A stretch of 64,000 nt of DNA from Bacteroides sp. Its GTDB lineage: Bacteria > Bacteroidota > Bacteroidia > Bacteroidales > Muribaculaceae. Within the stretch, counting starts at the first letter, position 1. The number at the start of each line of letters is the position of its first letter. The translations under genes and the position numbers were made by a program. The notes under the pieces are model-generated. The model saw only the letters and a list, made by a program, of their open reading frames with translations. It made no database searches and was not told the origin of the DNA. Positions 49,496 to 52,521 of the stretch are shown here, in pieces. Location: contig JAAVDM010000032.1 of the NCBI GenBank assembly GCA_014801815.1, forward strand, positions 62,001 to 126,000, read 5' to 3'.

Positions 49496-50038
49496 TCCAT
49501 TTTATTATTCAGACATTTCTCCCCCCGCTTTGGTTTACACCTACGACACAACTTGTCACAACGTACTGTATTCTCATCTGACAACCGGAATGAGACAAAT
49601 CAGAAACTATAAGTTCAATTAACCGCGTAAGCCAACCGAAGAGATACAGAGAGACATAAAGCACCCCTTAGTTCAGAGACCCAAAAGGTAGTATTAAATA
49701 CTTTACTCTCTGTCATACTTTCTCTCAATATTTATTTTTCACTGCAAATTTACCATTTATATTTCAGTTTCAGGTTGTCACTGTAAATCTAAGGTAGTGC
49801 AAAGTTATGTCAAGTTTTTCAGACTGCCATACCTCTTCAATATTATCATATCATGTTTTTGGTTCCTGTTATGTGATGTTCATCACATAACAGGAACCAA
49901 AAACATGATATGTCCCCAAATCTACGTCAGATCTTTCGGTTTCGTTAATGGTGATAAATTGTGTGCCGATAAGATTTCAAGCTCCGTAATAATCGGTCGG
50001 AATTATATGTTATGATTAAGGTAATAAGGGATACGGAG
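49496..50038. other. Intergenic stretch with a 66-bp palindrome, no gene recognised
   Basis: About 540 bp between element C and the rSAM gene. Besides the palindrome at 49847-49912 it has a minus-strand TAACTTTG at 49807-49800, a possible promoter pointing to the DUF1573 genes. A short frame from ATG 49904 (about 36 codons) is not convincing. Confidence 0.4.
49847..49912. repeat. Perfect 66-bp palindrome
   Basis: 32-bp arms (49847-49878 and 49881-49912) are perfectly complementary around TT; the arm core is GGTTCCTGTTATGTGATG. It is far longer and more perfect than a terminator, and unlike the ATPase palindromes in sequence. No gene lies immediately beside it: the nearest stop codon (rSAM) is 127 bp away. 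Confidence 0.92.
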
Positions 50039-51115
50039 TCAGAAATGGGAAAATGATGTGAGCAGATGACAATGCAGCAGATTGCCTTCGCCGTCGCGCA
50101 GGTGCATACCGTTGCCTTCACAATGACGCCACATGGAACACTCGGCACAGACACCGCGCCGCATCCACGAACGGTCTCGGTAAGGCTTGAAACGCTCCTG
50201 CCATACGGTCCAGAAATCATCACAGTATATGTTGCCTTGTGTATAATCGGCTCTTATACTCGGACAAGCACCTATACTGCCGTCGAGCAGCACCGAAGCC
50301 ACGTTGACTCCGGCTGAACAGTCGAAAAAGTAGTCACGTATCTCGCCCTCATAACCGCCCATAAAACCTTCACAGCAGAACGAAGCATGTATCAGACCCT
50401 CCTTGCGGGTAGCCTTTATGAATTCCATAAGCCGTTCAAGTTCTGCATCATCAAGCTCAAACTCCGGATATTGTGCGGCTCTTCCGGCAGGAAAAACGGT
50501 AAAGAGGCGCCAGCGTTTCACTCCGGCAGTGACAAGCAGCTGTTTCAGTTCGTCAAGACGCGACAGTGAACGGCGGTTGACACAAGTCACCACATCGAAA
50601 TTCAGATCAGAAGCGGCTACTACCCGCTTTATAGCCTCGTATGCACGCCTGAACGACTGCGGATGACAACGCATCCAATTGTGGTCTTCTTCAAGACCGT
50701 CAAGACTGATGGTAATATTATGCAATCCGGCACAACGCAGACTGAGCAAACGCTCCTCAGAAAGCAACAATCCATTGGTGACTATTCCCCATGGAATCTC
50801 ACGGTCATACAGTTGCCGTCCGACTTCCTCTATATCACGGCGTACCAACGGCTCACCGCCTGTAATGATGATATTCAGTCTGTGACGGTCTACATTAGGA
50901 AGCAGTGAGTCAACAACTTTGATAAAGTCAGCTCCCGGCATATCAGGCACGGCAGAAGAACTTTTACAATCGCTGCCGCAATGACGGCAACTGAGATTAC
51001 ATCGCCATGTACACTCCCAGAACAATTGCCTCAGCACATGCACACGACGCCTTTCTTCCTTTACTTTCCGGTTCAGTTCAAGAAGAACACGCTGTTTCAG
51101 GCTCAGTCGCTTCAT
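50039..51115 (-). CDS. Radical SAM/SPASM enzyme of the rSAM/lipoprotein system (TIGR04133-like)
   Basis: 358 residues. The radical SAM cluster motif CNLSCRHC (C39, C43, C46) is followed by GGEPL and TNGLLL. The C-terminal SPASM domain has many cysteines: DCSAGVNVAS, GACPS, GNIYCDDFWTVW, CAECSMWRHCEGNGMHLRD and LLHCHLL. This pattern and the two lipoprotein genes directly upstream match the rSAM/lipoprotein family defined bioinformatically in Bacteroidetes; the chemistry is not known. SPASM enzymes usually modify a peptide or protein, so the small lipoproteins are the natural candidate substrates. The start codon overlaps the stop codon of the preceding lipoprotein gene by 4 bp. Confidence 0.88.
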   Translation of the reverse strand: MKRLSLKQRVLLELNRKVKEERRRVHVLRQLFWECTWRCNLSCRHCGSDCKSSSAVPDMPGADFIKVVDSLLPNVDRHRLNIIITGGEPLVRRDIEEVGRQLYDREIPWGIVTNGLLLSEERLLSLRCAGLHNITISLDGLEEDHNWMRCHPQSFRRAYEAIKRVVAASDLNFDVVTCVNRRSLSRLDELKQLLVTAGVKRWRLFTVFPAGRAAQYPEFELDDAELERLMEFIKATRKEGLIHASFCCEGFMGGYEGEIRDYFFDCSAGVNVASVLLDGSIGACPSIRADYTQGNIYCDDFWTVWQERFKPYRDRSWMRRGVCAECSMWRHCEGNGMHLRDGEGNLLHCHLLTSFSHF

Positions 51116-51597
51116 CGCTCCACAGGTTTTTCCTTTAGGCTGAAATTAACCTCCGCTGTGGCTTTACCATAATACCAGGGATTATTGTTATTTCCGTCTT
51201 CTACAAACTCCAGCCTTATCAGAACAGTATCGGATTGTAAATTAATCTCGGGAGGCACACAAACTACCTTGACAATCCCTACCGGAAGTAAGCCTTCTGT
51301 AGCTGAATAACAACCCTGATTATCGGTTGCAGTTCTAAAATATGTAACTTCACGGTCTGTAATATCTTCCTCCGGGAAATAAGGATCAGGAACAGGCACC
51401 TCCATAACCTTGATTACAGCGTCAGGCACAGGCTTATTACCTTTCTCGGTAAATACCACACCCTTAATTTCAAAATCAGCAATAGGAGTACCATACATTA
51501 GAGCCATATCTTCATCATTTGAGCAACTGAATCCCAACAGACCCATAATAGCAGCGCAGATACTCGCCCAAAAACTTGAAAATCTAAATGAATTCAT
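51112..51597 (-). CDS. Radical SAM-associated lipoprotein, 161 aa
   Basis: Lipoprotein signal (GLLGFSCSNDE), then MYGTP.ADFEIKG, which is the start of a CarboxypepD_reg-like beta domain (PVPDAVIKV, TDNQGCYS, VGIVKVVCVP, PWYYGKATAEVNFSLK). It is paralogous to the neighbour at 51594-52037: the shared points are FS, SIC, SCSN.E, MYGTP, ADFE.KG, PV.DA.IKV, VKV.CVP, PWY and EVNF.LK. It is a candidate target of the rSAM enzyme encoded next. The start codon overlaps the preceding gene's stop codon by 4 bp. Confidence 0.85.
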   Translation of the reverse strand: MNSFRFSSFWASICAAIMGLLGFSCSNDEDMALMYGTPIADFEIKGVVFTEKGNKPVPDAVIKVMEVPVPDPYFPEEDITDREVTYFRTATDNQGCYSATEGLLPVGIVKVVCVPPEINLQSDTVLIRLEFVEDGNNNNPWYYGKATAEVNFSLKEKPVER

Positions 51598-52037
51598 AAT
51601 TTATCTTGTTTAAGACAGAAGTTTACCTCAACCTTAGCTTTATCTTCATACCAAGGCTCACTATTATCACTATATTTTATGTACTCTAACTTTACTACTA
51701 CTGTATCAGGATGTAGATCTGAATTAATAGGAACACATGCAACTTTCACTGAGCTTAAAGGAAATATTGTGCCGGTAGTACTATAATTTCCACGCTCATC
51801 AGTTACAGTCTTACTGAAGACCATAATATCGTACTCATCCGACATGTCAGGGAGTACTTTAATAATAGCATCACACACAGGAGCATTATCACTCTCAGAC
51901 GTTACTATACCTTTAACTTCAAAATCAGCAGTAGGTGTACCATACATCTCTTCTTCATTTGAGCAGCTTACTCCAATAAAACTCAGAATAGCAGTGCAGA
52001 TACTCACTAAAAGAGTGGAGAATTTAACTGAAAACAT
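51594..52037 (-). CDS. Radical SAM-associated lipoprotein, 147 aa
   Basis: Lipoprotein signal (SFIGVSCSNEE). A MYGTPTADFEVKG core and a small beta-rich domain (PVCDAIIKV, TDERGNYSTTG, SSVKVACVP, PWYEDKAKVEVNFCLK) align throughout with the 161-residue paralogue. The cysteine of VKV.CVP is conserved in both. The first 14 bp overlap the 3' end of the upstream lipoprotein gene. Confidence 0.85.
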   Translation of the reverse strand: MFSVKFSTLLVSICTAILSFIGVSCSNEEEMYGTPTADFEVKGIVTSESDNAPVCDAIIKVLPDMSDEYDIMVFSKTVTDERGNYSTTGTIFPLSSVKVACVPINSDLHPDTVVVKLEYIKYSDNSEPWYEDKAKVEVNFCLKQDKL

Positions 52038-52521
52038 AATTTATTCTAATTAATTTAAATATCAGTACTTTGTCTGAATCCGTAGAGTATTTACTACCGG
52101 AAAAATCTGTAGAACCTATGAAACAGTAGTCCTGAGTAAGGAAACATACCGTATAAAGCCCGTTTGCAGAACCTATAAAGGAGATAAAATTCCCTTCATT
52201 GCCGAATAGACCCACACACTCACCGGATTCATCATATACTTCATACGAAAGTATCTCTTCCATATTCATATCTTCTATCCACACACCATCACAATCAACT
52301 GTACAGTTGAAAATATGTGGCGGCACACGGTGCCCATGAGGTTCCTCCTCAATTTCCGACATTCTTGTAGCGAAAGGATAGTTGCGCAAATTGGGAATCA
52401 AGGGTGGAAAACAGATACTCGGATTAAAGTCAGTCCTAAGGTCACTCTCATCTTTGCTACAGGAGCTGAAAAGTACACTGCTGCAAAGTAAAAGAAATAT
52501 TATATGTCGGTAAAGTGTCAT
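52024..52521 (-). CDS. Lipoprotein at the head of the rSAM/lipoprotein operon, 165 aa
   Basis: Lipoprotein signal (SVLFSSCSKDE). It is not homologous to the two following lipoproteins and not recognised. The mature part is acidic and aromatic-rich, with cysteines in CFPP, NCTVDCDG and the later ESGECVG and VCFLTQDYCFIG. It is the first gene of the operon, with a very short leader (start codon about 13 nt after the predicted transcription start). Confidence 0.75.
   Translation of the reverse strand: MTLYRHIIFLLLCSSVLFSSCSKDESDLRTDFNPSICFPPLIPNLRNYPFATRMSEIEEEPHGHRVPPHIFNCTVDCDGVWIEDMNMEEILSYEVYDESGECVGLFGNEGNFISFIGSANGLYTVCFLTQDYCFIGSTDFSGSKYSTDSDKVLIFKLIRINYVFS

Follow-up and report, generated by a model that had tools for sequence, protein, structure and literature searches.

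The region described here lies in a 64,000-nucleotide stretch of a Bacteroides sp. genome (GenBank assembly GCA_014801815.1, contig JAAVDM010000032.1, positions 62,001 to 126,000), called the window below; the genome is assembled in 63 contigs and is 78.6% complete. Four overlapping genes on the minus strand form an operon in which three lipoproteins are followed by a radical S-adenosylmethionine (SAM) enzyme of the SPASM type, and the overlaps of 14, 4 and 4 bp given in the initial annotation are borne out by the coordinates of the open reading frames (ORFs). The head gene (52024..52521) encodes a lipoprotein of 165 aa. Next come lipoprotein A (51594..52037, 147 aa), with a signal peptide, a lipobox cysteine at residue 25 and a transthyretin/CnaB-like beta-sandwich, lipoprotein B (51112..51597, 161 aa) and the predicted modifying enzyme (50039..51115, 358 aa), whose CX3CX2C radical SAM motif (C39, C43, C46) falls at 50978..51001 as counted from the ORF. 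Lipoproteins A and B, already described as homologous, show 47% identity across 156 alignment columns; their sequences include MYGTPTADFEVKG and MYGTPIADFEIKG, respectively. Each contains Met-Tyr-Gly-Thr-Pro (MYGTP; residues 31-35 of A, 51933..51947; residues 34-38 of B, 51484..51498), the predicted modification site from sequence and family context. Profile searches with TIGR04133 (rSAM_w_lipo) and TIGR04134 (lipo_with_rSAM), a check that had been proposed at the outset, place the enzyme in the first family (548.5 bits, curated cut-off 425) and A and B in the second (71.9 and 69.4 bits, curated cut-off 39.8).

Loci and genomes of the survey are numbered with L and G. A scan of GTDB contigs with the window enzyme gave a first set of 73 loci, and the DNA around enzyme matches in a draw of 393 genomes from the order of the window, Bacteroidales, gave a second set. 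A local profile, from which L037 and L043 were omitted because of a stop inside the translated match, yielded 189 radical SAM genes in 187 loci (L035-L221), 73 from the first set and 116 from the second, pooled without mutual de-duplication. The nearest homologues of the window enzyme are 92-93% identical and belong to metagenome-assembled genomes labelled Porphyromonadaceae; Muribaculaceae, Muribaculum and Duncaniella are among those that follow. A partner was scored strictly as an ORF with a hydrophobic stretch, a cysteine and then YGx[PA] within 75 residues, on the same strand and no more than 1.3 kb upstream or 1 kb downstream of the radical SAM gene. Such an ORF stands beside 164 of the 189 genes (68/73 in the first set, 96/116 in the second), one row of this count, as of the 153 partners and 169 motif instances used below, being a spurious ORF at L093, where a real CYGPAP partner exists. 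In 144 of the 164, the end of the closest upstream partner lies no more than 60 bp from the enzyme gene. By comparison, YGx[PA] occurs in 3 of 343 same-strand lipobox-like ORFs more than 2.5 kb away and in 9 of 1033 on the opposite strand, both sets including spurious ORFs, and in none of 40 lipoprotein-like ORFs of at least 150 aa, a small background for which a canonical lipobox was required. The recurrence of a lipobox-like ORF with YGx[PA] beside the enzyme is more than chance. Inspection of the 25 failures found a partner with X-Tyr-Gly (XYG) in 12 (L078, L149, L157, L159, L168, L169, L172, L189, L194, L195, L198 and L204), and contig ends cut three others (L046, L145 and L214).

The association holds at the level of genomes as well. 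Within the draw of 393, TIGR04133 was matched in 97 genomes at E≤1e-60 (87 genomes above the cut-off) and TIGR04134 in 124 at E≤1e-3 (58 above the cut-off), and 55 of these 58 also hold a TIGR04133 match (Fisher p 1.5e-36), which agrees with the earlier view of enzyme and lipoproteins as a unit. That view was to be doubted if the enzyme regularly occurred without such lipoproteins. Taken literally this is close to what was seen, as 42 of the 97 enzyme genomes have no over-cut-off TIGR04134 match; however, most such enzymes whose DNA was read adjoin proteins with X-Tyr-Gly. The enzyme was rare in a class-wide draw (5/295 genomes at E≤1e-50), where TIGR04134 (E≤1e-8) was matched in three genomes including that of the window, all holding TIGR04133, and no further genome among the 295 had TIGR04134 without the enzyme. 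TIGR04133 enzymes are also found on records labelled plasmids. Plasmid pTS1 of the spirochaete Treponema saccharophilum (L223:2547-4023) carries a TIGR04133/lipoprotein pair (SCYGMPENYYSIKG) adjoining a serine recombinase gene, which suggests transfer out of Bacteroidota.

What the partners of the enzyme have in common is X-Tyr-Gly-x-Pro near the start of an exported protein, not the lipoprotein domain or the lipid. Besides TIGR04134 domain lipoproteins and their sub-cut-off homologues, they comprise lipopeptides only 58-82 residues long that contain CYGPAP, MYGPAP or MYGGP (for example at L055, L058, L060, L061, L099 and L103) and in part have XYG two or three times, and KYGxP lipopeptides occurring in sets (L146, L158, L162). 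Others are secreted proteins without a lipobox, in which X is Gln directly after the apparent end of a type-I signal peptide (L149, L159, L169 and L260-L264). Downstream of the radical SAM gene at L172 (G328), a protein without an evident signal peptide has three tandem CIYGPPPGF-like repeats (CIYGPPPGFDDDYREIDDVE). As partners exist without either, the TIGR04134 domain and the lipid were rejected as the defining substrate feature. The initial annotation had named a lipidated envelope protein as target; the lipoproteins are indeed likely substrates, but being a lipidated domain protein is not what defines a partner.

Two further observations concern the range of scaffolds. At L047 and L054 the upstream lipoprotein paralogues include two XYG paralogues in which LGF[DE]SSS replaces the lipobox cysteine, and which are therefore apparently not lipidated. 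In G165, of the same order, a 214-aa protein downstream of a radical SAM gene of the same wider clade (L243:2949-3596) ends in six KYGYP repeats (five KYGYPC, one KYGYPG) and is a candidate multi-site X-Tyr-Gly substrate.

Motif statistics were drawn from 153 partners, non-redundant at 60% identity, with 169 motif instances. X is Glu in 52, Met in 43, Cys in 38, Lys in 14, Leu in 8, Ala in 7 and Val in 3, with four other residues once each. At +3 Pro occurs in 155 and Ala in 14, the test admitting only these two; at +2 Gly is found in 5 and Pro in 14, and an aromatic residue lies at +6 or +7 in 134. An alignment of 62 partners (A1) has Y32, G33 and P35 invariant and the lipobox Cys25 as its only near-invariant cysteine, although the invariance of Tyr and Gly, here and in the 153 partners, is by construction because the rows were chosen by YGx[PA]. 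Independently of the motif, 32 TIGR04134 profile matches were examined, namely the two of the window and 30 with loci, one per genome. XYG is present at the matched ORF in 31 of them; for the remaining match, L022, it is seen in a second copy of that locus (L141). As the 32 matches are high scorers, the profile is itself biased towards the motif. Tyr-Gly is very probably the modified site.

Turning to the enzyme, the CX3CX2C motif and cysteine-rich SPASM tail noted from the sequence are present, and C39, C43 and C46, the adjoining G47, S48, D49 and C50, and the SPASM-region cysteines C266, C284, C323, C326, C332 and C349 are invariant in 38 aligned homologues. G47-S48 after CX3CX2C is common to PlpX-type enzymes, the spliceases that excise tyramine from MYG and LYG sites. 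Four columns picked post hoc (G47, T177, W202, G250) are shared by 19/19 TIGR04133-type and 5/5 PlpX-type rows, as against 0, 1, 1 and 2 of nine other enzymes, respectively. The AlphaFold2 (AF2) model of the enzyme has a mean predicted local distance difference test score (pLDDT) of 90.0, and its best Foldseek matches are SkfB, SuiB, BlsE and PqqE; no PDB structure named as a splicease was found in the best 50 of 128 matches (E≤0.001) or in 8 phmmer matches (E≤1e-5). In trees of hand-picked rows, which did not include AhbD, TIGR04133 joins the family TIGR04103, GDL/DUF1843-type enzymes and other HC[GA]S enzymes with support of 100/98 (43 rows) and 95/87 (36 rows), opposite nine rows made up of MftC, NirJ, PqqE, TIGR04053, TIGR04347 and three unnamed enzymes. 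TIGR04103 is presumably the same as IPR026482, the family of PlpX. The outliers L217 and L219 were used only in the 36-row tree and left out of the 43-row tree and the residue comparison, while L246 and L248 were left out of the tree. The grouping would mean kinship of TIGR04133 with spliceases if the root lies, as we assume, among the nine others. Within the clade that holds the spliceases the branching order is without resolution, and the TIGR04133 stem is long.

On balance we favour the reading of the TIGR04133 enzyme as a radical SAM/SPASM enzyme that modifies peptides in the manner of a splicease, with the full splicing account that this entails, because XYG stands beside it in 164 of 189 cases and is kept on unrelated scaffolds, and because the tree joins it to spliceases. 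The enzyme would act in the cytoplasm, before export, on X-Tyr-Gly(-x-Pro) just behind the signal sequence of the partner. After export and lipidation at Cys25 the partner proteins would remain in the envelope, carrying a reactive ketoamide between their lipid anchor and the beta-sandwich. For this system we infer the excision of tyramine, the sequence of events and the envelope display, and the expected net loss computes to C8H9NO, or 135.068 Da; the published mass of the spliced-out loss is 135.0757. Other chemistry at Tyr-Gly, such as beta-hydroxylation or epimerisation of Tyr, a Tyr-Pro crosslink or a three-residue cyclophane from Tyr to +2, is a possible but rather unlikely alternative. 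Many SPASM enzymes crosslink aromatic residues, Tyr is the sole reactive side chain kept throughout the motif, and the proline at +3 is frequent (155/169). However, Ala replaces that proline in 14 instances; a cyclophane of the Tyr-X3 type requires a beta-carbon at +2, where Gly occurs in 5 and Pro in 14 of 169; the Gly at +1 has no obvious crosslinking role; and the radical SAM enzyme groups with spliceases.

For a splicing enzyme of this kind, the role of the ketoamide as a covalent protease trap or an electrophilic amine anchor is speculation. The signal peptide may double as leader, given the enrichment of LG[FYILVW] near the cysteine (91/153 partners, against 0/40 in the small background of canonical lipobox ORFs). 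A more far-reaching proposal, which we hold only tentatively and consider doubtful as a whole, is that Bacteroidales possess a splicease free of PlpY and of any leader of the ribosomally synthesised and post-translationally modified peptide (RiPP) type. It would make alpha-keto-beta-amino acids in exported envelope proteins, close to their N-terminus. The Sec signal peptide would serve as leader, and the side chain of X (Glu, Met, Cys, Lys or Leu) would tune which protease or nucleophile the lipid-anchored ketoamide warheads trap.

The AF2 model of lipoprotein A (mean pLDDT 89.1) is a beta-sandwich with Foldseek matches to transthyretin-like, CnaB and carboxypeptidase D regulatory domains, at modest TM-scores (query-normalised about 0.3-0.5). 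In the model Tyr32-Gly33 lies in a coil (residues 23-35) linking the signal-peptide helix and the first strand. The partners could be ordinary lipoproteins that need YGxPxAxF for folding of the beta-sandwich, the radical SAM gene merely riding in the operon, and the aromatic residue at +7 of the domain proteins does lead into the first strand (E36-47 of the model). We regard this as very improbable, as the motif persists on peptides without the domain, the domain of G306 persists with Asn in place of the Tyr, and the enzyme accompanies over-cut-off TIGR04134 in 55 of 58 genomes. The number of acidic residues that follow the lipobox cysteine, a sign of surface export, is no different from that in the background (mean 1.47, n=95, versus 1.58, n=40), and surface exposure of the partners therefore gains no special support.

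Several findings weigh against the splicing account. The window enzyme reaches 106 bits against TIGR04103, for which the cut-off is 725 and a Nostoc enzyme scores 853.1; because its score is far below the cut-off, it is not counted among the members. Its scores are slightly higher with AhbD heme b synthase (118.6), TIGR04053 (113.0) and MftC (111.8), and the Nostoc enzyme itself scores 154.1 with AhbD, just above the 152.0 with TIGR04133. A review (PMC11002830) assigns PlpX to IPR026482 and gives it a partner, PlpY, with a RiPP recognition element (RRE). PlpX works with PlpY, whereas the window operon consists of three lipoproteins and the radical SAM enzyme only; no operon protein matched an RRE-type family in Pfam or NCBIfam, no dedicated PlpY profile having been used. 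By the strict test and inspection together, 10 of the 189 genes have no nearby XYG partner (L062, L090, L092, L148, L153, L179, L217, L219, L220 and L221). Three of these, L217, L219 and L220, are distant family outliers by local-profile score, and L221 has an XYG lipoprotein about 2.4 kb upstream of the enzyme. L062 has IYAGP in place of XYG, and Tyr is followed by Ala or Met in four of eight DUF1843-type peptides, so that Gly does not mark every site. Moreover, since X is Cys in 38 of 169 instances, splicing there would hit the residue to be lipidated.

The natural controls in which Tyr is lost are few and mixed, G306 speaking for the account and G227, G129 and G245 against it. Three genomes hold over-cut-off TIGR04134 without TIGR04133. 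In G306 (95% complete; no TIGR04133 match, also on a repeat search) the TIGR04134 protein, NGSPYAKFKIKG, has Asn at the place of Tyr with the remaining motif kept (VAGNGSPYAKFKIKG), and the protein of G369 (75% complete), EDNKTPHADYIFRG, is without Tyr-Gly. G227, however, keeps XYG in QYG and CYG proteins although it is without the enzyme. Among TIGR04134 matches on contigs other than that of the enzyme in enzyme genomes, XYG is kept in 12 of 13; the exception, which is Tyr-less, occurs in enzyme genome G129 and resembles the protein of G369. In G245 a sub-cut-off TIGR04134 match without Tyr adjoins the enzyme, and an over-cut-off match, KYGAPPLVKYGSPY, lies 2.4 kb away. The G245 enzyme gene stays open over 381 codons and has a short insertion, and as this frame is intact the genome counts against the Tyr-loss control. 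With G245 left out, XYG is present in 43/44 versus 2/4 (Fisher test, p = 0.0155).

The high scores of the heme-pathway enzymes AhbD and NirJ2 also bear on whether the lipoproteins are substrates at all. The enzyme could make a small molecule or act on another protein, with XYG as a binding epitope and the lipoproteins as binding or delivery partners. This appears improbable, because partners shrink to peptides that keep little but the signal sequence and XYG, sometimes in tandem, and because the motif is kept in the 12 of 13 homologues on other contigs mentioned above.

Elsewhere in the operon, the 165-aa head lipoprotein is lineage-specific and lacks the XYG motif. Neither NCBIfam nor Pfam yields a match to it at E≤1, and homologues were found by tblastn (E≤1e-3, loci gathered up to then) only at L035 and L036. 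The suggestion that it is a third component did not hold, and it was rejected as a conserved one. Downstream of the radical SAM gene, a perfect inverted repeat with 32-nt arms and a 2-nt loop (49847-49912) is a possible terminator or regulatory site. The interpretation given in the initial annotation is, as a whole, partly supported.

Full-text literature searches returned no paper with TIGR04133, TIGR04134 or their family names, consistent with the earlier remark that the family is named while its chemistry is undescribed, and none joining splicease or spliceotide with lipoprotein. In broader searches none of the matches listed was recognised as bearing on the pair. Scott et al. 2022, the work likeliest to touch the pair, was outside the search, so that priority is not settled. 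TIGR04133 and TIGR04134 are a common pair, with the enzyme in 97 of 393 genomes of the order, whose function is undescribed in the literature searched. Were the splicing account true, backbone-edited electrophilic proteins would regularly occur in the envelopes of many Bacteroidales, neither PlpY nor a RiPP leader would be needed for splicing, and compact new spliceases would be available for protein labelling. The prediction is a sharp one: one mass, one site, two proteins.

Among known systems, SkfB, SuiB, PqqE and MftC are, like the window enzyme, RiPP-type radical SAM/SPASM enzymes. Their target motifs are other ones, and MftC and PqqE, unlike TIGR04133, fall outside the clade that holds the spliceases. 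Sactipeptide and ranthipeptide maturases act on stretches with a conserved Cys, and the 62 aligned partners, which were chosen by motif, have no conserved Cys besides the near-invariant lipobox Cys25. Heme-type small-molecule chemistry, a cyclophane and a sactionine were weighed and ranked low. The NCBIfam hypothetical equivalogs TIGR04133 and TIGR04134 cover part of the system, the latter missing the short or non-lipidated XYG proteins that are the partners of many TIGR04133 genes.

Enzymes associated with a GDL motif or DUF1843 (Azospirillum, Aureibacter) are like TIGR04133 in belonging to the same wider clade and in having small upstream partner genes. Of the eight DUF1843-type peptides, which adjoin three enzymes of GDL or similar type, four have X-Tyr-Gly, the others having the Ala or Met noted above. 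Unlike TIGR04133 partners, these peptides are without a lipobox-type signal, and the GDL-type enzymes have C-terminal extensions. On a plasmid of Tropicibacter oceani (L230:2174-4982), a radical SAM gene of the TIGR04103-like clade is directly followed by a gene for a trypsin-like peptidase, which is of interest as ketoamides inhibit proteases.

The closest comparison is with PlpXY of Pleurocapsa. Its precursors differ from TIGR04133 targets, which have Sec-type signal peptides, mostly a lipobox and often a folded domain; the window lipoproteins start with lipoprotein-type signal peptides and gave no match to Nif11, NHLP or other leader families. The systems are alike in combining a radical SAM/SPASM enzyme with an X-Tyr-Gly target, in the YGxP context of the published PlpXY tag and in the possibility of multiple sites per precursor. 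The Nostoc TIGR04103 enzyme, encoded on a plasmid, has HCGS after CX3CX2C and adjoins a Nif11 precursor ending in ALYGLPPELF (GGRGSIALYGLPPELF). A 71-aa ORF at this locus was taken as PlpY-like by place only and has no NCBIfam family match. The end of the Nostoc precursor shares the pattern X-Y-G-x-P-x-x-x-F with TIGR04133 partners, and both window lipoproteins, with their adjacent MYGTP, carry the X-Tyr-Gly expected of a PlpX-type target.

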